From NCBI GenBank assembly GCA_027718005.1, contig JALLOP010000003.1, forward strand, positions 1 through 35,545: a stretch of DNA of 35,545 nt. Reading direction: 5' to 3'. The stretch comes from Patescibacteria group bacterium AH-259-L07. Its GTDB lineage: Bacteria > Patescibacteriota > Patescibacteriia > UBA2591 > UBA6264. The notes beneath the pieces are model-generated. The model was not told the DNA's origin and made no database searches. It saw nothing but the letters and a program-made list of their open reading frames with translations. A program made the position numbers and the translations under genes. Of this stretch, positions 3,139 to 26,487 are shown in pieces. Every line of letters begins with the position of its first letter. Position 1 is the stretch's first letter.

Positions 3139-3156
3139 CACCGTTAGAGGATTTGT

Positions 3157-3185
3157 CAAAAAAATTAAGCGCTGATTTTCAGCGC
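3157..3185 (-). terminator. Intrinsic terminator downstream of GWxTD-2
   Basis: Stem GCGCTGA/TCAGCGC with a 3-nt loop, followed on the minus strand by TTAATTTTTTT. The TGA inside the stem is in frame with the duplicated C-terminal copy, so it may have been the original stop of GWxTD-2 before the tandem duplication. Confidence 0.8.
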
Positions 3186-3190
3186 CTAAT

Positions 3191-6022: not shown

Positions 6023-6059
6023 TTGTTTTTCCTCCTTTGTAAAGAGTGTTTTTACGGTT

Positions 6060-6080
6060 GAGCATACACCTTGTATGCTC
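6060..6080. repeat. Hairpin in the propeller gene 5' leader
   Basis: Perfect 8-bp stem GAGCATAC/GTATGCTC with a 5-nt loop between the promoter and the start codon. It could stabilise the mRNA or act as an operator; nothing identifies it further. Confidence 0.5.
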
Positions 6081-6088
6081 TATTATCT

Positions 6089-6118
6089 ATAGTATGACAG
6101 ATTTTAAAAAAATGTCAA
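6089..6118 (-). promoter_or_regulatory. Promoter for the propeller lipoprotein
   Basis: Minus-strand TTGACA (6113-6118), 18-nt spacer, TACTAT (6089-6094). All three lipoprotein genes have this same arrangement of a perfect -35 box. Confidence 0.6.
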
Positions 6119-6147
6119 CCCCTCGCATCACCCCTTGCATCAAATCA

Positions 6148-6172
6148 TAAATAAAAATCCCTTATGGGATTT
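6148..6172 (-). terminator. Intrinsic terminator after the LysM-CHAP gene
   Basis: Stem AAATCCC/GGGATTT with loop TTAT, followed on the minus strand by TTTTTATTT. A second palindrome (CATTAC arms around CGAC-TGAC-GTCG) lies between it and the stop codon. Confidence 0.7.
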
Positions 6173-6203
6173 AGTGTAATGCTCACGACTGACGTCGCTT
6201 ACA

Positions 6204-7415: not shown

Positions 7416-7450
7416 AGGAGTATATTAGCAATATTATTAAAAAAGGCAAT

Positions 7451-10045: not shown

Positions 10046-10204
10046 AAGTAAAAAGGGAAAACCAAAAATGAAAAACCACAAGGAAAAGTTCAAAACCGAA
10101 TTGAAATCGCAAAGGTTCTTAGAGCAAATATTTTCACTGCAAAAGGACGAAGATAGTTTTACGTTTTAAAATGTCGTTTTTACTTTTTCATTTTTAAATT
10201 TTAA
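10044..10204 (+). repeat. Pair of inverted heptameric arrays between leuS and rsmA
   Basis: On the left, five units of the form AAAANNN (10044-10078); on the right, four units of the mirrored form TTTTTNN (10177-10204). Both have a 7-nt period and are roughly inverted relative to each other. They frame the doubtful small ORF at 10068-10169. Confidence 0.7.
10068..10169 (+). CDS. Possible 33-aa small protein
   Basis: ATG 10068 to TAA 10167-10169 encodes a charged peptide, MKNHKEKFKTELKSQRFLEQ and so on, ending DEDSFTF. A weak SD (AGGG) lies about 10 nt upstream. It sits alone between the inverted heptameric arrays in the leuS-rsmA gap. I do not recognise it. It could be a real small protein, a decayed fragment or chance. 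Confidence 0.2.
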   Translation: MKNHKEKFKTELKSQRFLEQIFSLQKDEDSFTF

Positions 10205-10219
10205 TTTAGTGAAGCGCTT

Positions 10220-11143
10220 ATGTCTTTATTACAACAGACAAAAAATTTGTGTAAACAATATCATATTACGCCCCTCAGACGTCGGGGACAAAATTTTTTA
10301 ATTAACCCTTTCATTGTAGAAAAAGTAATAGCAGCAGCAGGTTTAGATAAGAACGATATCGTAATAGAAGTTGGAGCAGGATTAGGGACATTAACAAAAC
10401 AAATAGCAAAACAGGTTAAAAAGGTAGTAGCGATAGAAATTGATAAAAAGCTGGTTCAAGTGTTAAGCGATGAATTATGTGATTACAAAAATGTAGAAAT
10501 AGTTCATGGCGACATACGAGATCCTACCAGCTACAAGCTACCAGCTACAAGCTATAAAATCGTGGCGAATTTGCCATTTAATATTACTGGTCTAACGTTA
10601 AGAAAATTTTTGGGGCGAAAGAATAGGCCGGAGGTAATGGTGGTGATTGTGCAAAAAGAAGTTGGCGAGCGAATTATAGCCCGTCCCTCAAAAAGGGGAC
10701 GGGATGACAAAAAAGGTAAAATGAATTTATTAGCTGTTTCAGTTCAATTTTATGCTCATCCTGAGATTATATTTTGTATAAGTAAAAATAATTTTTGGCC
10801 CAAGCCAAAGGTGGATTCAGTTATTTTAAAGATCGTTCCCTCGGGAGGGCTGACCTCCAAAAGAGGCCGGACTTTTGATGAGAAATTTTTTCAGATAGTG
10901 AAAGCTGGGTTTTTACATTCTCGGAAGTATTTACTTAACAATTTAGCAACCCTCCCCCTCCGACCCCCGACCTCCCGAGGAGGTCGGGGGTCTACAGCTT
11001 TAAAAAATAGTGCTATAATGATTAAATCATTAAAACAAGAATTGATGAAAATTTTTAACGAGATTGGGTTGAGTCCAAGAGTTAGGGCCCAGGAGTTGTC
11101 AGTGGAAAAGTGGGTCGCTTTAGTTAATAAATTATGCCAGTAG
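10220..11143 (+). CDS. rsmA: 16S rRNA dimethyladenosine transferase
   Basis: SAM-dependent enzyme (KsgA) that dimethylates the two adjacent adenines near the 16S rRNA 3' end during small-subunit maturation. The family opening RRGQNFLIN is followed by motif I EVGAGLGTLTKQIA, the acidic SAM residue in AIEIDKK, GDIRD, and the catalytic NLPF in IVANLPFNITG. The C-terminal helical domain ends SPRVRAQELSVEKW. At 307 aa it is longer than the usual 260-280. The excess matches four repeat-derived inserts: residues about 102-113 (heptameric array), 154-161, 207-217 and 248-258 (palindromes). The start lacks an SD. Its stop overlaps the next start by 10 nt. Confidence 0.95.
   Translation: MSLLQQTKNLCKQYHITPLRRRGQNFLINPFIVEKVIAAAGLDKNDIVIEVGAGLGTLTKQIAKQVKKVVAIEIDKKLVQVLSDELCDYKNVEIVHGDIRDPTSYKLPATSYKIVANLPFNITGLTLRKFLGRKNRPEVMVVIVQKEVGERIIARPSKRGRDDKKGKMNLLAVSVQFYAHPEIIFCISKNNFWPKPKVDSVILKIVPSGGLTSKRGRTFDEKFFQIVKAGFLHSRKYLLNNLATLPLRPPTSRGGRGSTALKNSAIMIKSLKQELMKIFNEIGLSPRVRAQELSVEKWVALVNKLCQ
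10525..10559 (+). repeat. Heptameric array inside rsmA
   Basis: TACCAGC and TACAAGC alternate twice and are followed by a degenerate unit, strict 7-nt period. It lies between the GDIRD and NLPF motifs and is translated as TSYKLPATSYK. Confidence 0.9.
10680..10703 (+). repeat. Palindromic element inside rsmA, copy 1
   Basis: Perfect 8-bp stem CCCGTCCC/GGGACGGG followed by the tail GGGATGACAAAAAA, which also occurs in the thrC downstream region. It is in frame at about residues 154-165. Confidence 0.75.
10838..10870 (+). repeat. Palindromic element inside rsmA, copy 2
   Basis: CCCTCGGGAGGG followed by CCTC/GAGG arms around an A-rich loop. Related by its GACCTCC core to the copy at 10962. Reads SGGLTSKRGR in the protein. 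Confidence 0.55.
10962..10992 (+). repeat. Palindromic element inside rsmA, copy 3 (GACCTCC family)
   Basis: Perfect 14-bp stem GACCCCCGACCTCC with loop CGA. The core is the same as in the intergenic element at 1348-1379. Inserted directly after the conserved RKYLLNNL segment, adding RPPTSRGGRGS. Confidence 0.85.
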
Positions 11144-11787
11144 AAAAACAAAATAGACGTTTAGTATTATTTCTTACAATTTTTAGTGTTTTTATTTTTG
11201 TAGTGGGTTATTTTCAGTTTAGGCATGCTATTTATGCGCCGTTTGGTGGTGTTTCTAAAGAACAAACATCACAGCAAATCGAACAGGAGTTATCTACATT
11301 AGTTTTACAAGACGTGGATAAAGACGGGCTAACTGATTTTGATGAACAGTTTGTATATTCTACTTCACCATATATTGCTGATACTGATAGTGATGCATAC
11401 TCTGATAAAGAAGAAGTTGATGCAGGGAGTAACCCTTTAGACCCAAAAAGCACTCCGTATGCGGTCAGAAAAGAGTCGGGAATTCAAACACAAAAAGAAG
11501 GGCCCGCCTCTGCTGAAGCTTCCGCCTCCACTAAAGTTTCGGCGGACAAAACGGCGGGCAAGGAGGAGATTTTAGAGAAAGTATTTCCGGCCCCGGAAAT
11601 AATAGAAGAACCTACCCAAATTTTTAAAGAAAATTTGACTGGGCAGGAGATTAGAGATTTGTTAATACAATCTGGAATAGATAAAGATATTGTGGATAAG
11701 ATGGATGACAAAACCTTAATAAAGTTGTATAATGAAACTATACAAGAAACTGGTATTAACCTAGAGAAATTACAAGGCGCTGAATAG
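11134..11787 (+). CDS. Membrane-anchored protein with TSP3-like calcium-binding repeat
   Basis: A 217-aa protein. One N-terminal membrane segment (about 9-30, LVLFLTIFSVFIFVVGYF) is followed by an acidic repeat region (about 50-105) with the loops DVDKDGLTDFDE and DTDSDAYSDKEE, then GSNPLDP. This is the thrombospondin type 3/EF-hand-like calcium-binding pattern. A repeat-derived Ala/Ser/Lys stretch (about 123-142) links to an acidic C-terminal part with IRDLLIQSGIDKDIVDKM. ATG 11134 overlaps the rsmA stop by 10 nt and is presumably coupled. It directly precedes the giant surface protein, so an extracellular structural or anchoring role in the same apparatus is likely but unproven. Confidence 0.8.
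   Translation: MPVEKQNRRLVLFLTIFSVFIFVVGYFQFRHAIYAPFGGVSKEQTSQQIEQELSTLVLQDVDKDGLTDFDEQFVYSTSPYIADTDSDAYSDKEEVDAGSNPLDPKSTPYAVRKESGIQTQKEGPASAEASASTKVSADKTAGKEEILEKVFPAPEIIEEPTQIFKENLTGQEIRDLLIQSGIDKDIVDKMDDKTLIKLYNETIQETGINLEKLQGAE
11502..11559 (+). repeat. Palindromic element C inside the TSP3-like gene
   Basis: Outer stem GCCCGCC/GGCGGGC and inner arm TCCGCC/GGCGGA over 58 nt. It shares CTCTGCT at its start and TTCGG(A/C)GGACAAA at its end with the element at 23292-23338. Reads PASAEASASTKVSADKTAG. Confidence 0.75.
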
Positions 11788-11804: not shown

Positions 11805-14800
11805 GTGTTCGGTAATATTAATTTTATGAGTTACTCAGGGTTTAAAAAATCAGTTTTAGTTAGTTTGATCACTATTTTGATGTTAGTTAGTTTATTTTTG
11901 CCTAAAACGGTTCATGCTCAATTTTTGATTTCTGATCCTGCAGGATTACTTCGAGATATTGGTGAGTTTGCGTGGAAACAGGCTAAGGATTTGGCCAAGG
12001 CAGCGTGGAAGCACGGCGGTGCGTTAGCATACAAAAATACTGTTAACTTTTATTTAGGCGAGATGGCTAAGCAAAGCGCTGAATGGGTGGCGACCGGCGG
12101 AAAAGGGAAAAAACCTTTATTTGCAAGGGATCCTGCTTTTTGGTCCAAATTAGGCGATCAAGCATTAGGAGAATTGATTGATCAGTATTCAAAAGGTTTT
12201 ACCGGAAGAAGCTTATGTGATCCATTTGATCCTACCATTCGTTTTAAAATGCTGGTTTCTATGGACCCAAAGTATCGGGAGATTAAGTTTGATGAGCAAT
12301 TGCGGTGTCCGGTGAGCAAAATCAAACAACGAATAAAAGAGGCAAGCAAAAAAAAGCTTTTTGAGTTTGATTTTGATTTGCGTGATGGACCAGTTGCTGG
12401 GTATAAAGCAAACATGCGGATTATTATAGCAGGAGATAGTGTTTTAAATAAAAATTATACCGGGATCACCAATGCGACTCATGTTTGTTATTCAGATCCA
12501 TCTCTTGATTTGAGCCAGTTTCCTCTTGGGTGTTTAGGGATTTTTGGATTAGGAACGGTAAATAAGGGCGTTGAGAAATTAATTGATATTACGTATAAAC
12601 TTGAAGATATGGGGAAGGAGCTTGAGCGGATTATTACTATATTAAAGCTTTTTGAAGCAGATCAAACCGAGATACGAGAAAAATTAGATGAATTAAATCA
12701 ACAACATATAAAGGCGCAGGAGGACATAATAGCTGCAGAAAACGCAGGCGTGCCAAGGGATCACCTGATACTGTTTTTTCTTAACAAAGATAAAGACAGG
12801 ATAAGGAAACAAATAGATAAGCTTGAGAAAATGCGTATAGATAAAGCCGAACAGATTGAGGCAGTTAATGACCTTATTAAATTACAACGAGATTTAGTAG
12901 ATAATATATGGGCATGGGAATTACTAGATAAAAATCCTGACACACCTGATATTCCTGGTGGACCTCATACGCTTTCTTTTTGGAGCCATTATACTCCTAT
13001 TTGTTCTGCTTTAGGAGATATGAGAGAATACATGAATAACGATGGATGTTTTGAGATTTCTGCTTTAGCAGTAGGTACAAATTTTGCTCCACTTACTATA
13101 CAAGAGGCATATACTAATTCACTTGCATATACCAAACGAGCTAATTCATACGTAAGACAATTAGTTGACTGGGCAAACACATTAGGAGATATGATTGAGG
13201 ACACAAAACTAAGTGATGATAAGGTACTGGAGACCCCAGATCTTGATCCATTAGAGGATATTAATCGTATGTATAACCCTGAAGGCAGTGATATTGGCGT
13301 ATTAGCAAGAATAGAATCTGATCTGTTGCGAAAGCAAACAACCGAAGTAGAAAAGTCTAAATTTTTCCAAACACTTCAGGGGCAAATGAATTCGTTGACA
13401 ACACAAATTTCTGATTTAGTAAAAACGCCATCGATTTATGTGAGTGAATCTGCGAGTCAAGCAGTAGAACAAGGCACTGCTGGGCCATTACAGTATACTG
13501 AAGTTGCGGCAGTTGACGCGATTGGTATTTTTACCAATACGTTGATTAATAAACTTTTAAAACAAATTTTTGAGACTGGGTTTAATCCACAACTTACCCC
13601 AGAGCTTGCAGAGAGAACAAAGCCATTTTTAGATGATGAAGGAGAGTCCGGCAGTCCATGGAGTCCATCGCGCCAGCAAAGCCGAGCCCTGTTTGCTGAT
13701 TTAGCTACGGCTCAATTAAAACGAGGACGAGAAATAACGATTTATGATGAATTTAACGTTTGTCCAAAAAATCCAGCGTACGCACTCCCCACCAATTGTT
13801 TATTAGAAGATAAAGACGGTAATACAATATTGCGAGCAGTAGAGGAAGGGTTGACCATAGCAGATGTTATAGAGAAAGGATTGGGCAGCGGCGCTTTAGT
13901 TGGCCGGCCAAATAATAATACCGGTCTTTTAAGTTTGACTAATATTAAAAAGTTACGGCGGGCACGTATTTTCCCTCTCGGGTTAGAAATTGCTGCTTCT
14001 AAAATTTATAATGGAGAACTTGGTGAAGATCCTGAATACACCCTAGAAGATATTGTTAACGAGTTTAATCAAACAAATTCGTTGGGCACATGTACCGATT
14101 TCAACGGAAGTTTTGAAAATGATGTTAATGACGATAATATCCCAGATGGATGGGTTCTGGGAGGCGATGTTTCACTTGAGACAAGCGAGGTACATTCAGG
14201 TTCTGTTGCATTGCGATTGAGCGGGAGTGGGTGGACCTCTAAGGTACGGCGGACCATCCCTATAAAATCAAATACGGTGTATACCATTTCAACATATGCA
14301 AAAGCAGAGAATAATAAACAACTATTTATTGGTCTATATTTTTATGATAAAGATGGCAATCAATTATTAGCATCTGGTTCAGCTGATGAGATTAATATTA
14401 GCGGTGGATTTGACTGGAGAAAAGGATGCGGCGCATCCTCATGTTATGCAACTGGCAGCATTAGTTTAACCAATACGTATGAGCAGTATGCGTATAGTTT
14501 TCGTTCCTTGCCTGATGCAGCCAGTGTAGAGCTTGTTCCCGAAGGTGCAGCACTTGCTGGTGCTCAAAGCGGAGATGTATTAATTGATGATGTTCAATTG
14601 ACGAGAGGGCAAACTGCTTCAGAAGAATATATGGAGCCATCGCCATTTTGTCATTTAGTTGACTCGAATTGGATATTTAAGAATTTAACCTATCAATGTG
14701 AAACTATTGGTTATTCAGCAATTCCTTTGCCCGGCAGTACTCAGCGTCAGGAAACGTGTGTTGATCTGCGTGATTGTATTAATGAAGATGAAAATGGACA

Positions 14801-17800
14801 ATGTGATACCTGGGGGTATTGTACGCGTGAAAAAAATACATGGCGTTTTAGTGGTAATTCTTGCGATGAGCAGTATGCAACATGCAAGACCTATATACGC
14901 TCAAAAGATAAAAAGCAGGTTTCGTATATAGAAAGAACAGTTGATTTTGGTGAGTGTACTGAAGGCAGTGTTGGGTGTAAATGGTACTGTACTGATTGGG
15001 ACGAAGATAATGGGCGTTGGCAATGTGCTGAGCCGGGAAAGGCACAATGTATAATAACTTCGCCTGCGCCAAGCGGCGGACAAAATTGTGTTTGTGATGG
15101 GACTAACGGGTGTTCTTTTGGTTTTTGTACTGTTAGAGAGGGCGAGAAATCTTGTTTAGTTGATAGTCCTGGCAATGCAATATTTTTTAATACTAATGTT
15201 GAGCAGTGTTTACCCGAAGTTGAAGGATGTAATGAATATATTAGAACCGTAGATGCGCCGCCAGCCCCAGATGGCTCAATAGATGATGAAGCATATAACA
15301 TTAATGATATAATTTATTTAGCAAGCGCTCCCACGTGTCAAGCAAAATATGTAGGATGTCAAATCTATACCCCTTCTGATCAAGGAGTTGCGATTCCGGG
15401 AATTGTAAATGTAGATGATCGATGCGAGGCTCAATGTGTTGGGTATGAAACATTTCAACAAATGCCAACTCATTTTGATACAAATACGAGCTGGGTTAAT
15501 TTTATTCCCGAGACCGCGAAGATGTGTTCGGTTCCTGGATGTGAGGAATTTACTAATTTAGATACGGTGACGCAAGGAGGGGAAGGATTAGAGTATTATG
15601 CATATCTGCGGCACTGCGCCAAGCTTCCTGATGAGGCAGCAAGCTGCGCTAATTTTTATACATGGATTGGATCTGAAACTACGGGATACCAATTAAAACG
15701 GTATCAATTAAAAGCTGATAATAATAACGAGCCAGAAAGAGTTTCTGCTTATAGTGAGGCAAAGAATGTATGGGACAAATGTGAGGATGCGACTGATTCT
15801 TTTTTTAATCCACATTGTAAAGAATTTTATAACGAATCAGGCATATCATCGTATCGTTTATTTAGAAATACGATTAGCTGTTCAGAGGAGTGCTCTCCTT
15901 ATCGGAGAACTATTGATGGGTCTTCGCGTATGGCAATTCCAAATCAGGGAGAAGTATGTAGTTTAGCTGATGTTGGATGCTATGAATATAAAGGACCAAC
16001 TGCTAATAATATACGCATATTATTTACTGATGATTTTGAATCAGGAATAGTTACGCTATGGCAGGGTGGAGAAATTTCCTCAGAATCAGTCAATCCTCCT
16101 CCCAGTTCATCAATGGAAGTATCAGGGGGCGAGGCTTCAAAGAAAGTGGCTAGTTTGGTCGCGCAAAATAAATCATATTTCCTCTCTTTCTGGGTTAAAG
16201 GAATTAATAGTATTAGCGCTCGGTTTTCTTCACTATCTTCTCAACCAAGATCCGGGCTTGATGCAAGTGAATGGGAAGAAGTACAATTAGGCCCGTTTTA
16301 TTTTGATACGGCGCCTCAAACTAATGAAACACTGTTCATTACCGCTGCTGATATTTTCTATATTGACAATATTACGCTCAAAGAAATATCTGATGATGTA
16401 TATGCAATTAAGGATTCATGGTTTACGCCGCAAATTTGTGATCAAGATTTTCAAGACAATGATATCCTTGGCGCAAAGCTTGGGTGCCGTCTTTATACTG
16501 ATAAAGATAATGATCCACATTATTTAAAATCATTTACCCGTTTATGTAAAGATTCTGATGTCGGGTGTGAAGCATTAATTGATACACAAAATTATTCAGC
16601 TTCACGTACGGGCGGCACGTTTAATGATGACAATACTGATTCAAAAGATAATGTAACGGTTCCTGCTGATGAAGTAGTGTATCGTGTTAATGATAAAGAG
16701 TATTTTTGTCAGGCAAAAGATAAGGGGTGTGAGAAAATGGGGCTGCCTCAATTAAGGCAAGATAATACGGTAGAGCGCTATGATACGGTATATATAAAAA
16801 ATGATCCTGAGCTTTATACAAAAGAGCCACTGCTTTGCCAGATTGAAGATTTAGGGTGTGAGGCATATGAGGGCGAGGGCGGTAATAGATATTTTAAAGA
16901 TCCAGAGATTACTAATAAGCTGTGTGAGTATCGAGAAAATGTTTTGATAGGAGGAGAGGCTAAAGTTGGCTGGTTTAAGACTGACACTGATCAGCCATGT
17001 TATGATAATCCTGTTTATTATCAACCGGATAGTCTTACCTATGGTATTCGTTCAGCTTATAAAGTATGTGATGCCGGGGATAATATTGGCAACGCTTGTT
17101 TGAGTGATGCTGATTGTCAAGGAGAGACCTGTGTCAAGATCTATGATGGTTGGGTCGGGATTTGTCCGCGCAGTCAGAATAGTTGTACCGCGTTTTTTGA
17201 TCCAGGCTGGGCTGGCCGCAAAGGTACTAATATACAACAAGAGGGGGCAGAAGTTAGGAAACTTGAAACTGGTTTTAGGGAGGGAGATTTCCATATTGCC
17301 GTTCAAGCGGCTGCACCTGCGTTAGTATCATCATCATCATCATTTACACCTCTCCCCCAATATTATTATTATCTTAACAACGAGAGATTGGATAGAGGAG
17401 CAGAAGAATGTCAAGCGCAAGTTTCATTAAAACGAGGTTGTATCCTTTTCAACGATCCAAATATTTCTTCTTCATCATACAGTAGTTTGGCCACTTACAT
17501 AAAATCAGCTCAATCAGATGTTCCTGATGGGCCTGTAGTCCCTGTTGATTGTGAACCAACTCCTAAACCTGATTGTACTGATCCATTAAATGCAGAGCGT
17601 GAGTATTGTTTGTATTGTGATCCATATGGGCAGGAAAGAAATGATACGAATGCCATAATAAAGGTGCGCAGAGATCGGACTTGCGGTGAATGGTTGAGCT
17701 GTACTAGTTTTCATTTAGAGACTTCAGGGGGAACAACCCGTCAAGTTTGTGATGAAGTAAGTCGTTGTGATGAACTTGTTGGATCGGGAGAAGCCTCACG

Positions 17801-20150
17801 ATGTGCTAATTTTGTCGGACCACCCCCAGAAGTATTAACTGAAGAAGTGTATAAGAGCCGCGATATATCATTTTATGGCATGGATTACTCTGGCTATTCT
17901 TTACACAATATGTATCCAGTCGAAGAGTTAGTCCTTGCCGAAACGCAAGGAATTTATCGATTAACCTATGAAGGTACTGCTTCTGGAGTTGATGGAAAAG
18001 GAAATACGATTGAAAAAGCGTGCCGAATTTATCCAGAAAAGGATTCACCATTTAAGAAGAGCATAGGCCCGGGCGGTAATAATTATTATCCTGATGTTAC
18101 TGTTTGTGAAGATGAGAACGATCCGCAATGCCAATGCTCATATACCAAAGCAGAATATAGCGGCGCTGTTAAATATTATAATTCAGACAGCTCTGTACCG
18201 ATTGGGATTTGTATTGGCGGCAATGATAATGGCAAGGCATGTGTAACCAACAATGATTGCGATAAACAGAATTGTTCATTTAAGACAAAGCAGACACGGG
18301 CTGTTGGCGTAAGCGGATATTGTTTAGAGCCTGATGTGAGTAAAGAGCCAAGTCCTAATAAGCTAGATATTAATGTCTGTATTACCTGGTGGCCAGGACA
18401 GAGTTTAGGTGATCCAAGCGTAAATCAGCAGTTTAGAAGCGCAGGGTATGAGGCATCAGAAAACAGACAGTGGTATTGTCTAAATGAAATATTTGGACCT
18501 ACTGAGATTGTTTTTCAAGATACTAAGGCAGGAGGGTGTAGTAATAATTTTAATACTGAATGCGAGCTTATAACTTATTCGTTAGCAAACCTTTCTCCAC
18601 CCAATCCCGAAGTTCAATCAAAAGAAGTGGAAAAAATTAAAGTTAAACTCATAGTAGATGATGGAGCCGCAGATCAAGGTAAAAATTGTAGTAATGCAGA
18701 CTGGAGAGGTGATGTTGAATTAACGAGTGCTAATAATTGGACGCGCGGAAAACACAATGATGATGGTACGACTTCTGAGAGTAATACGTGGGATACTAGT
18801 TGTGTTGATGTTGGTGAAACAGCCGTAAAAGTAAGAGCCTGTTTTGGCAATACGTGTAATAATGGAGATGAGGATTTTTTAAATAGATTTGAATTTATAT
18901 TGTCTGACAAGTCTGGCGGTAAAGCAACGGTTGGGGTTAAGGATATAAGGATTTATCTTAAAACAGGGTGTGAATATATTGTTAATGTTGCTACGGACGG
19001 GAATATAACTACTGCATGGACTGATCGTTTATGGAGTGAGAGTAAGTATTATAAGGATAATGATGGCGCAGTAGAGTGCCGTCCCTATGGCACAGCTGAC
19101 ATTAGTGGCTCACCAGAAGAATTAGTTTTGGTAGGAGACGGCGAAGCATGTACATTAGGCCAGGCCAATGTTGCTTATAGTGAAGCAGGTCTACAAGATT
19201 TATTTGCTCGAATTGGTCAGAAAAAACAGTTTCTTTATAAGGTTCAAGATCAAACATGTGTAGGAGCACTTCAGGGGATGTGTACACTGGATTCGAGTAT
19301 ACCGTGTCATGAGAATGCCGATTGTGTTGATGAGGGATTCTGTATTGGACCGTTTCCACCTGATTTTGACAGCGCGTGTTCAAATACAGGAGATCGGTGC
19401 AATTCTGATAGTGACTGTTCCCAAAATTACGGGACGTGTAGTGGAGGGAATATAGGACATTGTTCTGTTACTACCGGTATAGAATGTAGGGAGCCTAATC
19501 CTGAAGAACTTACTCCTGATTGTCCACAAGGTGACGCTCTCATGAAGTATGTTGATGTAAATTTAGAGGTTAAAAATTGGGATATTACCAGCACTGCAGT
19601 ATCTCGCGCACCTCAGGTGGCTTCATTAGATTGTAGAACTAAGAGCACTTGTCTTGGTATAAATAAGGTTACGATTGGGAATTCTGACAGCGGAAATATT
19701 GATCGAGAAGAATCATATACTGCTAATTTAAAATTTTATGCATGGGCCAATGAGAACCATATGCCTATCAGAAATATTGCTATTGATTGGTTAGGCAATG
19801 GCGCAGAAGATATTTCTTATAAGGTAATGGCTAAAAATCATAGGCCATTTTGCGACGACAGGCCTACTCCTGGCGGAGATAGTTTTGGCGGCAGTGAGAA
19901 AGCTTGTGTTGAAGAGTATTGGGAATTTACACGTATTTTTAAATGCGTTGGTGATACGAGTGAAGGGTGGGGGGCATTTAAGAATGAAAATAGTATATGT
20001 GCTACGGCTTGCTGTTTTAAACCAACAGTGTATGTCAAAGATAATTGGGATTGGTGTAATGGCGAAGTATATGCTGGAGCGGATAGTAGATGTGTTAGTA
20101 TAAGTGGCGCGGGGACTTCGTACGATGGTGTAGTTATTGTGAGACCATGA
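11805..20150 (+). CDS. Giant secreted cysteine-rich surface protein
   Basis: A 2781-aa protein with a signal peptide (hydrophobic VSLITILMLVSLFLP, likely cut after VHA|Q). The GTG at 11805 has a GAGGG site 9 nt upstream; ATG 11826 is an alternative without SD. Order of parts: N-terminal globular region; coiled coil about 265-370 (LEDMGKELERIITILKLFEA onward); two jelly-roll carbohydrate-binding-like domains (about 762-945, starting NGSFENDVNDDNIPDGW; about 1405-1532, starting DDFESGIVTLW); and many short motifs of the form CxxxxxGCxxY (CSLADVGCYEY, CQIEDLGCEAY, CKDSDVGCEAL). C-terminal modules follow the pattern GxxCxxDxDCxxxxC (GNACLSDADC, GKACVTNNDC). It precedes virB6-like and fits a disulfide-stabilised fibre or adhesin of the secretion/pilus apparatus; the function is inferred. 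Confidence 0.85.
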   Translation: MFGNINFMSYSGFKKSVLVSLITILMLVSLFLPKTVHAQFLISDPAGLLRDIGEFAWKQAKDLAKAAWKHGGALAYKNTVNFYLGEMAKQSAEWVATGGKGKKPLFARDPAFWSKLGDQALGELIDQYSKGFTGRSLCDPFDPTIRFKMLVSMDPKYREIKFDEQLRCPVSKIKQRIKEASKKKLFEFDFDLRDGPVAGYKANMRIIIAGDSVLNKNYTGITNATHVCYSDPSLDLSQFPLGCLGIFGLGTVNKGVEKLIDITYKLEDMGKELERIITILKLFEADQTEIREKLDELNQQHIKAQEDIIAAENAGVPRDHLILFFLNKDKDRIRKQIDKLEKMRIDKAEQIEAVNDLIKLQRDLVDNIWAWELLDKNPDTPDIPGGPHTLSFWSHYTPICSALGDMREYMNNDGCFEISALAVGTNFAPLTIQEAYTNSLAYTKRANSYVRQLVDWANTLGDMIEDTKLSDDKVLETPDLDPLEDINRMYNPEGSDIGVLARIESDLLRKQTTEVEKSKFFQTLQGQMNSLTTQISDLVKTPSIYVSESASQAVEQGTAGPLQYTEVAAVDAIGIFTNTLINKLLKQIFETGFNPQLTPELAERTKPFLDDEGESGSPWSPSRQQSRALFADLATAQLKRGREITIYDEFNVCPKNPAYALPTNCLLEDKDGNTILRAVEEGLTIADVIEKGLGSGALVGRPNNNTGLLSLTNIKKLRRARIFPLGLEIAASKIYNGELGEDPEYTLEDIVNEFNQTNSLGTCTDFNGSFENDVNDDNIPDGWVLGGDVSLETSEVHSGSVALRLSGSGWTSKVRRTIPIKSNTVYTISTYAKAENNKQLFIGLYFYDKDGNQLLASGSADEINISGGFDWRKGCGASSCYATGSISLTNTYEQYAYSFRSLPDAASVELVPEGAALAGAQSGDVLIDDVQLTRGQTASEEYMEPSPFCHLVDSNWIFKNLTYQCETIGYSAIPLPGSTQRQETCVDLRDCINEDENGQCDTWGYCTREKNTWRFSGNSCDEQYATCKTYIRSKDKKQVSYIERTVDFGECTEGSVGCKWYCTDWDEDNGRWQCAEPGKAQCIITSPAPSGGQNCVCDGTNGCSFGFCTVREGEKSCLVDSPGNAIFFNTNVEQCLPEVEGCNEYIRTVDAPPAPDGSIDDEAYNINDIIYLASAPTCQAKYVGCQIYTPSDQGVAIPGIVNVDDRCEAQCVGYETFQQMPTHFDTNTSWVNFIPETAKMCSVPGCEEFTNLDTVTQGGEGLEYYAYLRHCAKLPDEAASCANFYTWIGSETTGYQLKRYQLKADNNNEPERVSAYSEAKNVWDKCEDATDSFFNPHCKEFYNESGISSYRLFRNTISCSEECSPYRRTIDGSSRMAIPNQGEVCSLADVGCYEYKGPTANNIRILFTDDFESGIVTLWQGGEISSESVNPPPSSSMEVSGGEASKKVASLVAQNKSYFLSFWVKGINSISARFSSLSSQPRSGLDASEWEEVQLGPFYFDTAPQTNETLFITAADIFYIDNITLKEISDDVYAIKDSWFTPQICDQDFQDNDILGAKLGCRLYTDKDNDPHYLKSFTRLCKDSDVGCEALIDTQNYSASRTGGTFNDDNTDSKDNVTVPADEVVYRVNDKEYFCQAKDKGCEKMGLPQLRQDNTVERYDTVYIKNDPELYTKEPLLCQIEDLGCEAYEGEGGNRYFKDPEITNKLCEYRENVLIGGEAKVGWFKTDTDQPCYDNPVYYQPDSLTYGIRSAYKVCDAGDNIGNACLSDADCQGETCVKIYDGWVGICPRSQNSCTAFFDPGWAGRKGTNIQQEGAEVRKLETGFREGDFHIAVQAAAPALVSSSSSFTPLPQYYYYLNNERLDRGAEECQAQVSLKRGCILFNDPNISSSSYSSLATYIKSAQSDVPDGPVVPVDCEPTPKPDCTDPLNAEREYCLYCDPYGQERNDTNAIIKVRRDRTCGEWLSCTSFHLETSGGTTRQVCDEVSRCDELVGSGEASRCANFVGPPPEVLTEEVYKSRDISFYGMDYSGYSLHNMYPVEELVLAETQGIYRLTYEGTASGVDGKGNTIEKACRIYPEKDSPFKKSIGPGGNNYYPDVTVCEDENDPQCQCSYTKAEYSGAVKYYNSDSSVPIGICIGGNDNGKACVTNNDCDKQNCSFKTKQTRAVGVSGYCLEPDVSKEPSPNKLDINVCITWWPGQSLGDPSVNQQFRSAGYEASENRQWYCLNEIFGPTEIVFQDTKAGGCSNNFNTECELITYSLANLSPPNPEVQSKEVEKIKVKLIVDDGAADQGKNCSNADWRGDVELTSANNWTRGKHNDDGTTSESNTWDTSCVDVGETAVKVRACFGNTCNNGDEDFLNRFEFILSDKSGGKATVGVKDIRIYLKTGCEYIVNVATDGNITTAWTDRLWSESKYYKDNDGAVECRPYGTADISGSPEELVLVGDGEACTLGQANVAYSEAGLQDLFARIGQKKQFLYKVQDQTCVGALQGMCTLDSSIPCHENADCVDEGFCIGPFPPDFDSACSNTGDRCNSDSDCSQNYGTCSGGNIGHCSVTTGIECREPNPEELTPDCPQGDALMKYVDVNLEVKNWDITSTAVSRAPQVASLDCRTKSTCLGINKVTIGNSDSGNIDREESYTANLKFYAWANENHMPIRNIAIDWLGNGAEDISYKVMAKNHRPFCDDRPTPGGDSFGGSEKACVEEYWEFTRIFKCVGDTSEGWGAFKNENSICATACCFKPTVYVKDNWDWCNGEVYAGADSRCVSISGAGTSYDGVVIVRP

Positions 20151-20196: not shown

Positions 20197-23100
20197 ATGA
20201 GATTTAATTTATTTCAAAAATTTGGATTCCTCCCAAATCGGGGGTCGGACCCCCGATTTTGGGGATTGTGGAATGACACAAAAAAGTGGTTTGTTTTACT
20301 GCTGTTTTTTATTGTTATTGGTGGTGTTTTAATTCCTGAACAAGCACATGCTCAGCTTTTTGGTATATTTAAAGCAGTTAATGAGGGCGTAGCGTCTTTA
20401 TTCGCAAATATATTTCTTTTATTGGCAAATTTGGTTGGTCAGCTTTTATCAGTCGTGATTTATGTATTAGTCCAAGTGGTTCAATATAATGGTTTTATTA
20501 GTTCTCCGGCAGTTTCAAAAGGATGGATTATTATCCGCGACTTGTTTAACATGTTTTTTGTGGTGATTTTGCTGGTTATTGCGTTTTCTGCGGTGTTAAA
20601 AATAGAGAAGTATCCATATAAGCGCATGTTGTCAGCTTTTTTAATTGCGGCCGTATTGGTGAATTTTTCTAAATTAATTTCCGGGGTATTAATTGATTTT
20701 AGTCAAATTTTAATGTTGACGTTTGTGAATGCGTTTAAAGATGTGGCAGGGGGCAATTTTGTTGAAATGTTAGGACTTAAAGAAATAATGAGTTTGAGTG
20801 CGAATGTCGGCGCAGAAGTGATTACTCCATGGAAAACAGCGATTACCATTATGTTAGGTTTTATTATGGCGCTCGTTGCATTGGTGGTAATGATAGTGGT
20901 GACCCTTATATTTGTATTTCGCATTGTAGGACTTTGGTTTTTAGTGGTGTTGTCTCCCTTAGCATTTATGGCGATGGTTCTACCATCAACACAAAGTTAT
21001 GGCAGGCAGTGGTGGCAAAAATTTACCAATTATTTAATTGTTGGGCCGGTATTGGCATTTTTTATTTGGCTTTCATTAGCCGTTGTGCAGGAACCTGGCG
21101 GCAGACAACTTTTACCCGCAACTGAAAGCATCGGTGGTGAGTTTAGCGTAGGCGTGTCCCAAATTGGCCAGCCCCAATATATGCTTAATTTTATCATTGG
21201 TATTGCCATGCTGATCGCATCACTTATGGTGGCAAAACAATTAGGCGTTGCCGGCGCGGGTCTCGCAACCCAGGCAGTTGGCAAGCTTCAAGGAGTTGCT
21301 ACGGGTGCTATTAAACTGCCGTTTAAAGGCATGAAATTCGGCGCAAAAGAGATGGTCAAGACTGCAGAAGCAGGAATAGGGATTCCCTTGACAAAAGAAC
21401 GGTGGCAGCAAGCATGGCAGACACGGCGAACAAAAGTTAAGGAAAAAAGAGAGGAAAAGTGGGCCAGGAGAAGAATGCCAGGACTTCCTGCTGGATATGA
21501 GGAGTGGGGAGATGTAATGTCATTGAAAGGATTAGCTTCATTTCCAAAACATATTATACAGGGTTTTACTGGAAAAGCGCAAAGACTACGTAAGGACGCA
21601 GAAGGAAAAGAGGATGTATATGACAAGATTGGACAGGGAATAAAAGCAAAAAGTTCCCGAGAAGATCGTGATAAGCTAGATAAAGATATTGATGAGACAA
21701 CTCAGGATATAATTACGGCTAAAAGGGATAGCAAAGACTTTGGGGCCAGGGGCACAATGACGTTCTCTCATTTTGATGATTTTTCAAAAACCTTAATACA
21801 AGAGAGAGATCTCCTGCGTGAATCAAAAGAGGCTAAGGATCAAAAGCGAGCAAAGGAATTAGATGATTTAATTAAGAGTCTTAAGATTGGGAGGGGCAGG
21901 GCTAAAAAGGCAGGACAACGAGAAGTTGGAGCAAGTAATTTAATATCTGATAGAGATTTATATAAAAATGAAGCGTCGAAATGGTATACTAAACAAATGC
22001 AGACCAAAGAAAGCCACCTGAATAATTTAACTGAGAAAAAAAAGAATACTGAATTTAGCGAAGGCGATCAAAGCGAGATTAAGAAAAATTTACAAGTTCT
22101 ACAGGCAGAGATACAAGAATTTGATATTGATGATACTGCAAAAACAGGTCTTTTAGATAATGTTAATAGTGCATTAAAAAATGTGAGCGTTCCCTTAGAT
22201 GAGTTGACACCGGAGGCAAGAAAAGAAATGGCAGATGCTATGTGGGATGTACAGCAAAAAATACAACAATTAAGAGATGAGGAGGAAATAGGAATGCCAG
22301 AAGCAGAAACCCCGCTTGAGCAAATACAAGACAGTCATTTCCGATTATCAAAAGACGTAATCGCGGATGAAGATATGAAAAAATTAAAAGAAGATCAGGA
22401 GAAAAGGAGGCAGGAAATTCTTGGTTTACGCGCTCAAGCTGAGATGATTAGCCCGACTACTATGACTCCGGATCAGCGAGAAGCCATAAACCGAGGCACA
22501 TATCGAGAATATGAAAAATTGAAAGGAATAGATAGTGCCCCAGAGTTAATGACATTATACGCTCGTGCAGAAAAAGAAAAAAATGCCAATCTTGCCCGAG
22601 CAGTAATTACAAAATTAAATGATCAATTTGACATTAATGAGCTTTTAGAAGTATATGATTTAGAACAGGGTTGGAAAGGTATGGCTGACTTAGCAGATAG
22701 ATTGAAAGAAAACTTTGATATTCCTGAACAGCAAGCATATTCATTTATGAATGATATCGGGGCGACAAATAAACTAAGAGGCAATTTTAAGTTTGTAATG
22801 CCCTTTAAGAAAGATCAAAAAACTGGCAGATTAGAGAAAGTTACCCAGAAGCAGCACGAAGAGTTTGCATATATTGAATCGGGAAAGATTGCTGCTCAGC
22901 AATTGTGGGGTAGAGGAAGTTGGGGAGGAGTATTTGCCAAGCATAAAGATCCAGTCACCGGTCAGCGCGTGCCCATTTATGATGATCTGGTTGGAAAAAT
23001 GTTTAAAAGAGCAATGGGGACAATCGAGTATGAAGGAGTTCATAGAAATAGATTGCTGCCCGAGATTACCGCGGGTTTATCTCATCCCAATGTTATGGGA

Positions 23101-23244
23101 GGACTGAAAGGGCTGCGCCCAGGGCTTGCTCCGGCTGATAGACAAAGACTTGATAATATTCTCTCATGGCTCGAGGGCCAGCAAGGGAGTTATTGGGGAA
23201 GAGAAGGCGGCGAAAAGATAGAACCGGTAATGAGTAGCGAGTAA
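20197..23244 (+). CDS. VirB6/TrbL-like polytopic membrane protein with long cytoplasmic tail
   Basis: A 1015-aa protein. An N-terminal hydrophobic segment ends with the signal-like site EQAHA|Q (about residue 50). Several membrane segments follow to about residue 360, including the block KGWIIIRDLFNMFFVVILL and then NFSKLISGVLIDFSQ, typical of the VirB6-like proteins of Patescibacteria. The remaining 650 or so residues are hydrophilic, highly charged and coiled-coil rich (KREEKWARRRMPGLP, QKRAKELDDLIKSLK). VirB6 forms the inner-membrane channel of type IV secretion systems; the long tail is lineage-specific and may bind the neighbouring cytoplasmic proteins. A palindromic element codes for about residues 12-25 (PNRGSDPRFW), ahead of the first hydrophobic segment. 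No SD precedes ATG 20197. Confidence 0.85.
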   Translation: MRFNLFQKFGFLPNRGSDPRFWGLWNDTKKWFVLLLFFIVIGGVLIPEQAHAQLFGIFKAVNEGVASLFANIFLLLANLVGQLLSVVIYVLVQVVQYNGFISSPAVSKGWIIIRDLFNMFFVVILLVIAFSAVLKIEKYPYKRMLSAFLIAAVLVNFSKLISGVLIDFSQILMLTFVNAFKDVAGGNFVEMLGLKEIMSLSANVGAEVITPWKTAITIMLGFIMALVALVVMIVVTLIFVFRIVGLWFLVVLSPLAFMAMVLPSTQSYGRQWWQKFTNYLIVGPVLAFFIWLSLAVVQEPGGRQLLPATESIGGEFSVGVSQIGQPQYMLNFIIGIAMLIASLMVAKQLGVAGAGLATQAVGKLQGVATGAIKLPFKGMKFGAKEMVKTAEAGIGIPLTKERWQQAWQTRRTKVKEKREEKWARRRMPGLPAGYEEWGDVMSLKGLASFPKHIIQGFTGKAQRLRKDAEGKEDVYDKIGQGIKAKSSREDRDKLDKDIDETTQDIITAKRDSKDFGARGTMTFSHFDDFSKTLIQERDLLRESKEAKDQKRAKELDDLIKSLKIGRGRAKKAGQREVGASNLISDRDLYKNEASKWYTKQMQTKESHLNNLTEKKKNTEFSEGDQSEIKKNLQVLQAEIQEFDIDDTAKTGLLDNVNSALKNVSVPLDELTPEARKEMADAMWDVQQKIQQLRDEEEIGMPEAETPLEQIQDSHFRLSKDVIADEDMKKLKEDQEKRRQEILGLRAQAEMISPTTMTPDQREAINRGTYREYEKLKGIDSAPELMTLYARAEKEKNANLARAVITKLNDQFDINELLEVYDLEQGWKGMADLADRLKENFDIPEQQAYSFMNDIGATNKLRGNFKFVMPFKKDQKTGRLEKVTQKQHEEFAYIESGKIAAQQLWGRGSWGGVFAKHKDPVTGQRVPIYDDLVGKMFKRAMGTIEYEGVHRNRLLPEITAGLSHPNVMGGLKGLRPGLAPADRQRLDNILSWLEGQQGSYWGREGGEKIEPVMSSE
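20232..20263 (+). repeat. Palindromic element inside the virB6-like gene
   Basis: A 15-bp stem CCCAAATCGGGGGTC and its complement with one bulged T, followed by GGAATGACACAAAAAAG, a variant of the tail behind other copies. It is in frame near the N-terminus. Confidence 0.8.
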
Positions 23245-23276: not shown

Positions 23277-25202
23277 ATGGCAGAGAAACAATCCTCCTCT
23301 GCTAAACCTGTCCGTCCGGCAGGCGGAGCTTCGGAGGACAAAGAAAAAAAAATAGATTTTAAAGATAAAAAAGTAAGAAAGTCGCTCTATAAAGAGATTG
23401 GCCAGGGTTTTTATGATAATCCAACAAAGATTAAACAGTGGAATAAAAAACGAGCAGCCTTGGAGGAGTTTTTAAAAGAAAATAAGACGCTGCCTGAAGA
23501 TAATCCTTCTTTATATAAAGAATGTCAGGATTTATTAACTCGGCTTCAATGGTATTCATTTTTCTTTATTTCTTCAGACGATGCAGTTAATCTTTTTAAG
23601 TCGGGGATTAATATTGCGCTTTCGGAAAAGTCTTTTCCTCTAGAGACATATTTAAGTGTATTTTTGCTCAATATTCCTTCACTTACTTTACGAGATGAGT
23701 ATAAAGGAAAAATTCGCCAAGCAGTAGTAGAAAGTAAAAAAAGAATAACCTCAGGAGATATTAGAACAGTTGCTGATTGGCTTACATTGTATAATAGGGA
23801 ATTAGGAACAGGAGAAGTGGAAAAAGTAAGAGTGGCAGAATTTTTAAATAAAAATGAACATATTATTAAACTGTCTTCATCTGAAAAAACAAAGATCAAG
23901 AGGCTTTTTGAATTGTATGAAGAATTAAAAATTCCTGCTAACACTATTGAGGGACTTGAAGAAGAAGTATATGTGCTTAATGAACAAGGGGAACTAGAAT
24001 TTCATAAAAGAGGAAAGGTGGAAAATATAACAAGAGCAGTTGAGCGGGAAGAAGCAATGGAAGAAGCAAAAAAAAAGCCGTCCCCACCTCCACCAATTAA
24101 TTTAAACACCGCAATAAAGAATGCGATGGAGGGCGCAGGCCTTACATTACCTGACCAAGCATTACAAAAAAGATTTGAAAATATTGCTAAATCATATTTT
24201 GGTAATGTACGTACTGAAATTGAAACGCGCATTGTATTAAAACGGGATACAAAAGTTGGCGGTATGGGGCTTGATGACGAAACAGCAGATAAAGTTATAA
24301 ATATATTTAAAAAAGAAAAGCCGCAGGTCACTGTTGAAGAGCCAGTTAAAACGCCCGGCGTTAAACAGGCTATTTCTAAGCCAACGCCGGGCGTTAGCAA
24401 GAAACCGGATACAGGATTGGCTAAAGAATTAAGGCCGCCGGAGGAATTAATTGCTGCAGAGACAAGAATGCAGGCTGTGTCACGTAAACCAGAAGAAAAA
24501 CCTAAAAAAGCGCTTGAAGAAAAACTTCCGCCCAAGGCGGATCAGCCTCGGGCTGAAAAAGAACCGGAAATTAAACCAGAACCAAAATTAGAAGAAAAGC
24601 AAGCGCCAGTATCTGAACCTCGGCTTGTTCAAGAAAAAAAGGTTGAACCACCAAAAGAAGTAAAAATTGAGGAAAAAGTTGAACCCAAAAGAGCACCTCA
24701 GGCAGCGCCGAAAGCAGGGGCCCCTCCGCCTACTCCAGAGCCGCCCAAGGCAGAACCAGAAAAACCTCCATCTCCTGCGCCTATAAAACCAGTAACACCG
24801 CCAGTACCAGAAATAAGAAAACCAGCTGCCCAACCGCCAGAAGGAAAACCAATAGCCGAAGAAATAAGAGTTAAGCCGCGAGCACAGGGACCTGTTGATG
24901 AATTGCGGTATCTTACTTTAGGTGACTGGCGTAGATGGGGTTCAACTCAGGATGCGGCCCAAAAAATTCAAGATAAAATTAATTTATTAGCTGAAGAATC
25001 ATTAACTAAAAAAGCAGAAGCGGTAAAAGCATGGAAAGAGTCAGAAATTAGTAAATTGTATTTACAGCTTGGCGAGGAATCAATTAATGAGGGAAAATCA
25101 GTTGAAGAGGTTATTAAAGATCGCCAGCAGACTGGAAAACAAACTTTGACCAAAGAGGAGTTTGATGCAGTAGTAGGACTTAATCGAAAGCTACGCTTTT
25201 GA
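23277..25202 (+). CDS. Proline-rich cytoplasmic protein of the secretion locus, function unknown
   Basis: 641 aa, with no signal peptide or membrane segment. The N-terminal 260 residues or so are predicted helical (KSLYKEIGQGFYDNPTKI, then LKIPANTIEGLEEEVYVL). A second helical block at about 275-345 (NLNTAIKNAMEGAGLTLPDQ) follows a Pro-rich hinge. A long Pro/Lys/Glu-rich disordered part comes next (about 370-540). A conserved-looking C-terminal block begins near 543 (DELRYLTLGDWRRWG) and runs to the end. It sits between virB6-like and prgI in the same direction with small gaps, so it is probably a cytoplasmic accessory subunit. Three palindromic elements are translated within it (N-terminus, about 357-373, about 418-427). 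I do not recognise the family. Confidence 0.75.
   Translation: MAEKQSSSAKPVRPAGGASEDKEKKIDFKDKKVRKSLYKEIGQGFYDNPTKIKQWNKKRAALEEFLKENKTLPEDNPSLYKECQDLLTRLQWYSFFFISSDDAVNLFKSGINIALSEKSFPLETYLSVFLLNIPSLTLRDEYKGKIRQAVVESKKRITSGDIRTVADWLTLYNRELGTGEVEKVRVAEFLNKNEHIIKLSSSEKTKIKRLFELYEELKIPANTIEGLEEEVYVLNEQGELEFHKRGKVENITRAVEREEAMEEAKKKPSPPPPINLNTAIKNAMEGAGLTLPDQALQKRFENIAKSYFGNVRTEIETRIVLKRDTKVGGMGLDDETADKVINIFKKEKPQVTVEEPVKTPGVKQAISKPTPGVSKKPDTGLAKELRPPEELIAAETRMQAVSRKPEEKPKKALEEKLPPKADQPRAEKEPEIKPEPKLEEKQAPVSEPRLVQEKKVEPPKEVKIEEKVEPKRAPQAAPKAGAPPPTPEPPKAEPEKPPSPAPIKPVTPPVPEIRKPAAQPPEGKPIAEEIRVKPRAQGPVDELRYLTLGDWRRWGSTQDAAQKIQDKINLLAEESLTKKAEAVKAWKESEISKLYLQLGEESINEGKSVEEVIKDRQQTGKQTLTKEEFDAVVGLNRKLRF
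23292..23338 (+). repeat. Palindromic element C-like at the start of the 641-aa gene
   Basis: Outer arms TCCTCC/GGAGGA and an inner CCTG...CAGG hairpin. Its ends match the element at 11502-11559 (CTCTGCT, GGACAAA). Encodes SSSAKPVRPAGGASED. Confidence 0.65.
24345..24395 (+). repeat. Palindromic element D, double copy inside the 641-aa gene
   Basis: GTTAAAACGCCCGGCGTTAAAC at 24345-24366 and the inverted core AACGCCGGGCGTT at 24383-24395. The same palindrome family (GTTTAA-GCC-GGC-TTAAAC) lies between genes at 31090, 32520 and 34107. Here it is translated twice as TPGV. Confidence 0.75.
24528..24555 (-). repeat. Palindromic element B inside the 641-aa gene (inverted copy)
   Basis: CCGCCC...GGCGG and CAGCC...GGCTG hairpins. 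The reverse complement matches the leuS copy at 8173-8200 at 25 of 28 positions. It is in frame in the disordered part, reading PPKADQPRAE. Confidence 0.8.
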
Positions 25203-25277: not shown

Positions 25278-25694
25278 ATGCAATTTGTCGTTCCACAATT
25301 TATTGATGTTGAGAGTAAAATTATTGGGCCGGTCACCCCCAAACAGTTTGTTATTCTTATCATTACCGCCCTGTTTTTGTTTGTTTCATATAAACTGGCT
25401 GATTTTACCTTATTTATTATTGAGGCAGTCATTATTTTTGGATTAGGCGTAACACTTGCATTTTTAAAAGTAAATGGTCAGCCGTTTTACTTTTTTCTCC
25501 TCAATATTGGTCATTCATTAAAGAAACCAAGTTTACGCATTTGGAAAAAAGAAATGATTCCTATTGTTGAAGAAAAAGGAAAAAAATTAAAAGAAGAAGA
25601 AAAGGTAGTTACGGCGCGAAAGCCTTTAGCCACATCCAAGCTTTCACAATTAGCGTTACAAGTTGACACGGGAGGAAGATATGAGGAGGAGTAA
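25278..25694 (+). CDS. PrgI family membrane protein
   Basis: 138 aa. Family opening MQFVVPQFIDVESKIIGPVT, two adjacent membrane segments (about 25-60, including FVILIITALFLFVSYKLA), then a basic cytoplasmic part (KKPSLRIWKK). PrgI-family proteins regularly precede VirB4-type ATPases in conjugation-like loci of Gram-positive and Patescibacteria genomes and are comparable to VirB3. No SD precedes the start; an octameric array lies just upstream. Its last codons hold the AGGAGG site of the next gene, so the two are likely co-translated. Confidence 0.88.
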   Translation: MQFVVPQFIDVESKIIGPVTPKQFVILIITALFLFVSYKLADFTLFIIEAVIIFGLGVTLAFLKVNGQPFYFFLLNIGHSLKKPSLRIWKKEMIPIVEEKGKKLKEEEKVVTARKPLATSKLSQLALQVDTGGRYEEE

Positions 25695-25699: not shown

Positions 25700-26374
25700 A
25701 TGGCAAAAGCAAAATCGAAAACTAAATTACCATCAACTCAAAAGTATTTAGATATTTCTGAGATTAGAAATGATTGTGTTGTGTTAACAAACGGCAGTTT
25801 GTGTGGTATTGTATTAACATCTTCTATTAACTTTGCCTTAAAATCAGAAGATGAACAAAAAGGTGTAATCTCCGGCTATGTGCAATTTTTAAATAGTTTA
25901 GATTTTCCTATGCAAATCATTATTCATAACAGGCCGTTTAATATTAAGCCATATCTTGCGCAGATAGAACAATTAAAAAAAGCGCAAACGAATGATTTAT
26001 TAAAAGATCAAATGGGTGAGTATAGTGATTTTATAAAGGAATTAGTTGGTATGGGTGAGATTATGAGCAGACGCTTTTATATTGTCGTTCCGTATAATCC
26101 CTTAGGCGATAAAAAGCGCGGATTTTTTTCTCGCTTATCTGATGTGTTTAGCGCGGCAAGGGTAGTTAAAATTAAAACAGAACGATTTGAAAAGTATCGA
26201 GAAGCGCTTTTTAAACGAGTTGATACAGTACGATCCGGTTTAAGTACGATTGGCGTGAGTGCAGCACCGCTCGATACCCAAAGTTTAATTGAATTTTTCT
26301 ACACCATTTATAACCCGGCTGAGTCAGAAATGCAAAAAATGACAGAAATGAAGAACCTCAGGGTTCAACAATGA
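25700..26374 (+). CDS. TraC-like protein (VirB4 N-terminal-domain-like)
   Basis: 224 aa, cytoplasmic. The opening PSTQKYLDISEIRNDCVVLT and the segment LDFPMQIIIHNRPFNIKPY resemble the N-terminal domain of TraC/VirB4 ATPases. No Walker motifs are present, so it is a stand-alone companion, as usual upstream of VirB4 in Patescibacteria loci. SD AGGAGG lies inside the prgI end, 6 nt from the prgI stop to this ATG. Its stop lies in the first unit of the heptameric array that separates it from virB4. It probably forms part of the ATPase assembly at the membrane. Confidence 0.8.
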   Translation: MAKAKSKTKLPSTQKYLDISEIRNDCVVLTNGSLCGIVLTSSINFALKSEDEQKGVISGYVQFLNSLDFPMQIIIHNRPFNIKPYLAQIEQLKKAQTNDLLKDQMGEYSDFIKELVGMGEIMSRRFYIVVPYNPLGDKKRGFFSRLSDVFSAARVVKIKTERFEKYREALFKRVDTVRSGLSTIGVSAAPLDTQSLIEFFYTIYNPAESEMQKMTEMKNLRVQQ

Positions 26375-26486
26375 AGAATGCAGAATGAAGAATGAAGAAT
26401 TGGGGTAGAGCTCATTCATTATTCTAAATTCATCATTCATCATTGAAAATAATTCATCATTCTAAATTCATAATTCATAATTGTAA
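26370..26486 (+). repeat. Two inverted heptameric arrays between traC-like and virB4
   Basis: Units AATGAAG (26370-26404) are followed by units of the form ATTCATC/ATTCATA (26414-26448 and 26452-26486), all with a 7-nt period. The first set is roughly the reverse complement of the second, so the gap can fold on itself. It fills the whole intergenic space. Confidence 0.9.
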
Positions 26487-26487
26487 C

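Follow-up and report, generated by a model that had tools for sequence, protein, structure and literature searches.

A giant cysteine-rich exported protein encoded beside virB6 in one class of Patescibacteria is a candidate host-contact part of the type IV secretion system

The locus described here raises the question of what an 8.3 kb gene for a Cys-rich protein is doing directly upstream of virB6 in a bacterium with a small genome. The gene lies in a 35,545 nt stretch of DNA from Patescibacteria group bacterium AH-259-L07 (hereafter the window; the genome assembly is 1.41 Mb in 148 contigs and 75.6% complete). According to the main text of Wang 2023 (PMC10633639), Southlakia cannot grow epibiotically without its type IV secretion system (T4SS). 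A survey of Patescibacteria T4SS (Quinonero-Coronel 2025, PMC12102498) lists the components of these systems, with no adhesins such as PrgB, and its main text (word search and T4SS repertoire section) does not mention a giant or Cys-rich protein.

The gene order in the window is leuS, rsmA, a bitopic membrane protein with calcium-type loops, the giant gene, an extended virB6, a gene for a cytoplasmic protein and prgI, followed by an ORF for the N-terminal part of VirB4, virB4 with an intein, a 187 aa membrane protein and a T4SS pilin (Table 1). VirB6, PrgI/VirB3 and the VirB2-like pilin were all matched, each below its curated Pfam cut-off, and class-wide synteny supports the assignments; together with VirB4, this gene content marks the locus as a FATA-like Patescibacteria T4SS locus. 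The predicted neighborhood of the giant gene and virB6 was confirmed, virB6 being the next gene and part of a family that is homologous throughout the class. The intein (Intein_splicing and LAGLIDADG matches) is placed at the P-loop (GSGKS) of VirB4, and the 187 aa single-pass protein of the T4SS cluster (30517-31080), which has no Pfam match, is possibly VirB8-like by size and position. A Cys-rich style shared with the C-terminal part of the pilin had been pointed out; the two proteins have only Cys richness in common, no sequence similarity was detectable (best BLASTP E 0.98), and homology was rejected.

Other features of the window are recorded here for completeness. At the DNA level, the first ~25 codons of the cytoplasmic protein gene (23277-23363) are nearly identical to those that open a gene for a DsbA-like protein (L210, G000:C134), and they recur in two more places in the genome; this is probably a repeat, scattered through the genome, that is translated in frame to give an N-terminal tag. 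The 1492-3030 ORF opens with a stretch, MNPVRNFASGGREKK, that looks like another case of the kind. Two neighboring lipoprotein-like ORFs at 1492-4640 resemble GWxTD domains, one scoring over the cut-off and the other only weakly, and two HEPN proteins and a nucleotidyltransferase, an arrangement like that of HEPN/MNT toxin-antitoxin systems, are encoded after the T4SS cluster and before the end of the window (32664-33809).

Table 1. Coordinates of the T4SS locus in the window and of the regions of the giant protein.
Feature	Position	Strand	Size, match or basis
Bitopic membrane protein, two DxDxDGLxD calcium-type loops (TSP3-like)	11134..11787	+	
Giant exported Cys-rich protein	11805..20150	+	2781 aa, likely start ATG 11826
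Signal peptide, residues 8-38, cleavage predicted between VHA and Q	11826..11918	+	hydrophobic segment; aligned in homologues
N-terminal helical domain, conserved LC...C pair Cys138/Cys168	11919..12464	+	homology, AlphaFold model
Coiled coil, residues ~254-370	12564..12914	+	AlphaFold model, alignment
Second helical domain, residues 485-765	13257..14099	+	AlphaFold model, alignment
CBM_4_9 jelly roll, residues ~766-935	14100..14609	+	Pfam
Conserved Cys-rich all-beta core, residues 945-1800	14637..17204	+	alignment, AlphaFold model
Second jelly roll, residues ~1405-1530	16017..16394	+	placed by lack of Cys and by beta strands
C-terminal Cys-rich region, residues 1840-2781	17322..20147	+	CxxDxDC-type modules; more variable
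Extended VirB6 (TrbL)	20197..23244	+	PF04610 E 1.1e-5, below curated cut-off; class-wide homologous family
Cytoplasmic protein, conserved after virB6	23277..25202	+	synteny
PrgI (VirB3-like)	25278..25694	+	E 8.4e-5, below cut-off; synteny
VirB4 N-terminal part / TrsD-like, separate ORF	25700..26374	+	
VirB4 ATPase with intein	26443..30375	+	P-loop TraG PF19044, 78.6 bits, over cut-off
T4SS pilin domain, Cys-rich C-terminal tail	31120..32511	+	E 1.2e-5, just under cut-off; 18 Cys

The giant gene is an intact ORF with no internal stop, and its coordinates and length proved to be exactly those originally predicted. The product contains 114 Cys (4.1% of residues). A GTG start would place seven residues ahead of the signal-peptide Met, so the ATG at 11826 is probably the real start. 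The sole hydrophobic segment is N-terminal (residues 17-35), the rest of the protein being without a TM-like stretch, and a simple threshold detects a clear N-terminal hydrophobic segment in 53 of 64 N-termini of related loci. None of 58 complete C-termini of giants carries a TM segment or an LPxTG-like sorting motif. Searches with Pfam and NCBIfam recognized neither an SLH or other S-layer domain nor a T4SS, toxin or enzyme domain in the protein, and PHROGs gave no match.

Relatives of the giant belong to one class, which we take from their names (Buchanan-, Falkow- and Magasanikbacteria) to be GTDB class ABY1. Counting the window's own, the giant is present in 54 of 58 class genomes, and a VirB4N protein in 50 of 56. 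Two of the four genomes lacking it (G001, G044) also lack VirB4N and two (G012, G021) have it; since these are drafts, loss of the gene and a gap in the assembly would look the same. The size of the protein had been called very large for an organism with a reduced genome, which is true, but within the family it is normal, as the median length of the 57 complete homologues is 2705 aa (3.6% Cys) and the giants in 20 neighborhoods are 2530-3742 aa long with 88-143 Cys. The usual order, rsmA - calcium-loop protein - giant - virB6 - prgI - virB4N, was seen in these 20 neighborhoods and in 80 further loci (those kept from 199 in a scan of GTDB genomes). The giant gene follows the calcium-loop gene in nearly all of the 20, and in most of them virB6 is adjacent or a few genes downstream; other genes intervene in some relatives, and a few genomes have virB6 on another contig. 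The calcium-loop gene (DxDxDGLxDxxE loops) is kept directly upstream of the giant across the class, and some loci from other classes have a recognizable counterpart in this position; on gene order alone, its product could anchor or partner the giant. Several Cys-containing ORFs near other giants were considered and found to be unrelated genes.

The domain layout of the protein falls into a helical N-terminal part and a Cys-rich, all-beta remainder. The coiled coil that had been predicted appears in the AlphaFold model as two long helices (residues ~254-313 and 318-370), and has low occupancy among homologues. Near the end of the second helical domain are the motif KLRxxRIxPxGLEIAA and a Cys pair (653-665). 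The model of the N-terminal part (N-domain) is of modest quality (pLDDT 70, pTM 0.37) and has no PDB match by Foldseek at E <= 1e-3; sequence searches against solved structures found nothing for the N-domain and only marginal CBM matches for the giant as a whole. The two predicted jelly rolls were both recovered. The first is a Pfam CBM_4_9 match (residues 766-851; it scores 37.5 bits where 25.9 is the cut-off), an insertion not found at the same place in most homologues; the second, conserved in the class, corresponds to a CBM22-like fold found by Foldseek inside residues 945-1800 (E 1.6e-7, query range not printed). The core, with about 35 strongly conserved Cys, is modeled as all-beta (pLDDT 84, pTM 0.69). 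Its better-superposed Foldseek matches cover only ~150 residues, the CBM22-like jelly roll, and the rest is taken to be without a close PDB relative, with the reservation that Foldseek gives no query range. Matches in BFVD were weak, long and poorly superposed, many of them to phage tail proteins, and were set aside as probably reflecting jelly rolls and generic beta repeats. The best reading of these models is an ectodomain of disulfide-stapled beta units and lectin-like jelly rolls. Both jelly rolls match the folds of CBM4/9 and CBM22 modules, but in the giant they sit in a larger Cys-rich scaffold, and carbohydrate binding is putative.

Counts of the Cys motifs vary with how strictly they are defined. 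Strict CxxxxxGC occurs seven times, about five of these as CxxxxxGCxx[YF], and about ten are obtained once the spacing and the Gly are relaxed, while GxxCxxDxDCxxxxC occurs once in strict and four times in relaxed form; the original prediction of about ten CxxxxxGCxxY motifs and several of the latter thus holds for the relaxed forms but not for the strict ones. Cys is by far the most conserved residue type (at the 70% level, 57% of Cys are conserved and 0-34% of each of the other types), and this lead over other residues argues that the Cys richness of the giant is more than chance. Among variable Cys columns, 43% have a partner at r >= 0.95, compared with 0-5% for Y, W, G, P, F and N. The pair 653-665 is complete in 69 cases and missing in 6 (3 changes on the tree), 1281-1359 in 32 and 19 (4 changes), 1869-1879 in 71 and 3 (2 changes), and 2101-2109 in 30 and 24 (2 changes), with a single Cys never found in any of the four. 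Since each pair has few independent changes, the weight of the pairing rests on the whole set, across which the variable Cys are gained and lost in pairs. These four pairs, and a fifth at 2225-2389, are predicted disulfides.

Absence of any disulfide-forming enzyme had been named as a finding that would speak against disulfide linkage, and it is not what the genome contains: two VKOR and two Thioredoxin_4 (DsbA-like) proteins are encoded, one VKOR carrying WCFWC and one DsbA-like protein CPFC. Neither VKOR nor Thioredoxin_4 was matched in seven relatives with a Cys-rich giant (G005, G007, G009, G015, G017, G018 and G019). Taken with the signal peptide, the lack of another anchor and the paired Cys, these enzymes give good support to the disulfide-linked extracellular structure originally proposed, so that the giant is well supported as a disulfide-bonded extracytoplasmic protein, the bonds themselves being predicted.

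A profile of the N-domain (residues 39-765) was run blind against 192 genomes from across the phylum, and matched 16 of 16 class genomes and six outside the class (G256, G077, G141, G138, G112 and G095). All six outside matches are directly upstream of a virB6 match on the same contig and strand; E-values for G112 and G095 are only ~3e-4, and these two count mainly by position. Twenty outside-class loci were sampled because virB6 is present, and in 18 the ORF just upstream of virB6 specifies 286-791 aa, with one of 1959 aa; the starts of these ORFs are mostly signal-peptide-like. Across the 557 ORFs of the 20 loci, every N-domain match at E < 1e-3 falls between rsmA and virB6. By homology, then, the N-terminal helical domain corresponds to short exported proteins found upstream of virB6 in other classes, and the N-domain represents a T4SS-linked exported family in several classes of the phylum. 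As the matches are confined to the slot upstream of virB6, the reading of the giant that fits best is a small exported protein, linked to the T4SS, which carries an extension specific to the class. Most likely, the ~750 aa N-terminus is the ABY1 form of the small protein, to which ABY1 adds a C-terminal ectodomain of ~2,000 aa. Locus L195 has a small 280 aa protein and a larger, Cys-containing 791 aa protein as separate genes, and the giant may possibly have formed by fusion with a neighboring gene. The 1959 aa protein (L193 of G078, 5196-11072; 27 Cys), which also lies just upstream of virB6 outside the class, has no profile match to the giant and is perhaps an independent enlargement.

The remainder of the giant is distributed differently. 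Outside the class, a profile search of the phylum with the core gave only weak, short matches (E 3e-12 to 4e-4), mostly at profile positions 160-350 or 615-740, which we read as the jelly-roll parts, and apart from these the Cys core was absent. To judge from these searches, ABY1 alone has the Cys-rich all-beta remainder.

What computation shows for the giant is an export signal, homology, linkage of the genes, pairing of Cys and a predicted beta fold; its docking, surface exposure and host contact we infer. The explanation we favor, with moderate confidence, is a T4SS-linked exported protein whose disulfide-stapled, lectin-bearing ectodomain contacts the host while its N-domain is docked at the channel. 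The protein would be exported by Sec and oxidized by VKOR/DsbA-type enzymes; the helical N-domain would dock against VirB6 on the outside of the secretion channel, perhaps together with the calcium-loop membrane protein, and the rigid ectodomain would project outwards to meet the host cell. Counting against this explanation are the relatives in which other genes precede virB6 or virB6 is on another contig, the two draft genomes with VirB4N and no giant match, the seven relatives in which neither VKOR nor Thioredoxin_4 was matched, and the modest quality of the N-domain model. The host-contact fiber suggested at the outset is in this sense plausible.

The main rival, which we regard as unlikely though it deserves weight, is a T4SS scaffold that does not bind the host: a collar spanning the cell wall, or a sleeve round the channel or pilus. 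A monoderm envelope without VirB7/9/10 would suit such a part, and the survey, as far as its main text goes, found outer-membrane core proteins near virB4 only rarely (PMC12102498). The core has a median identity to the window of 34%, close to the VirB6 TM domain (38%) and RsmA (39%); the second helical domain reaches 28%, the first 25% and the C-terminal region 20%. These values argue that the core is structural and that the C-terminus changes faster. A core so well conserved, in a protein that nearly every genome of the class encodes, is not typical of an adhesin that evolves fast, and would count against host contact. However, the lectin-like jelly rolls, one of them an insertion that most homologues lack at that place, and the variable C-terminal region partly fit a binding role.

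We think it rather improbable that the giant is an adhesin or S-layer-like envelope protein that works apart from the T4SS and happens to be encoded in its operon. Peribacteria are reported to have large exported proteins, rich in Cys, for which a part in attachment has been proposed (PMC4736985), and the lack of a T4SS domain recognized by Pfam and NCBIfam would agree with this; against it are the position of the N-domain upstream of virB6 across classes, the single conserved locus, and the lack of an S-layer domain match or LPxTG anchor. As far as the descriptions can be compared, the Peribacteria proteins resemble the giant in size, Cys richness and signal peptide, but they are several and strain-variable with no T4SS link given, whereas the giant has one conserved locus.

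A VirB5/TrbJ homologue enlarged to a pilus-tip adhesin is very unlikely. VirB5 makes up the tip of the pilus, resting on VirB6 (PMC12624023). VirB5/TrbJ is likewise exported, encoded beside virB6 and helical at its N-terminus, and four of 19 giant family members have a weak DUF4141 match (best E 7e-4) over the signal peptide region. Pfam and NCBIfam gave no VirB5/TrbJ match to the family, hhalign against ten plasmid VirB5 proteins reached probabilities of 28%, 8% and 6%, and Foldseek found no VirB5 structure among matches of the N-domain model, itself of modest quality. The profile test is of low power, since its positive control, the VirB6 family against one R388 VirB6, also reached only 27%. 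A VirB5-like motif follows the signal peptide in 5 of 70 giants and in 32 of 311 other proteins, by a crude parsing of signal peptides, and this comparison is given no weight. The giant also differs in being more than 10x larger and disulfide-rich. By analogy, it could possibly work like VirB5, in a comparable place at the tip of a stalk. We give almost no credence to a T4SS-secreted substrate or effector, as might be suggested by the shared operon and the very large exported product, given its own Sec-type signal peptide, the lack of a toxin or enzyme domain in Pfam and NCBIfam, and a single copy conserved in size and gene order within the class.

Among known systems, the MPF-FATA-like T4SS of Patescibacteria (PMC12102498, PMC10633639) have the same locus type, with VirB4, a TrsD-like protein, PrgI/VirB3, VirB6 and a VirB2-like pilin; the main texts of the two papers, as far as searched, do not mention the giant, the N-domain family or a class-restricted Cys ectodomain. 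PrgB and other Gram-positive conjugation adhesins are likewise large, exported, encoded in a FATA-type T4SS locus and possibly engaged in cell contact, but the giant has no LPxTG anchor or PrgB domain match and is built of Cys-rich beta units.

We propose, tentatively, that an undescribed family of Patescibacteria T4SS proteins is encoded beside VirB6, and that one class has enlarged it into a disulfide-stapled, lectin-bearing host-contact organ of ~300 kDa. A giant ectodomain tied to virB6 throughout a class, together with the small family in the corresponding slot of other classes, provides a concrete candidate for the part of the T4SS that contacts the host and makes the question of T4SS host contact testable.
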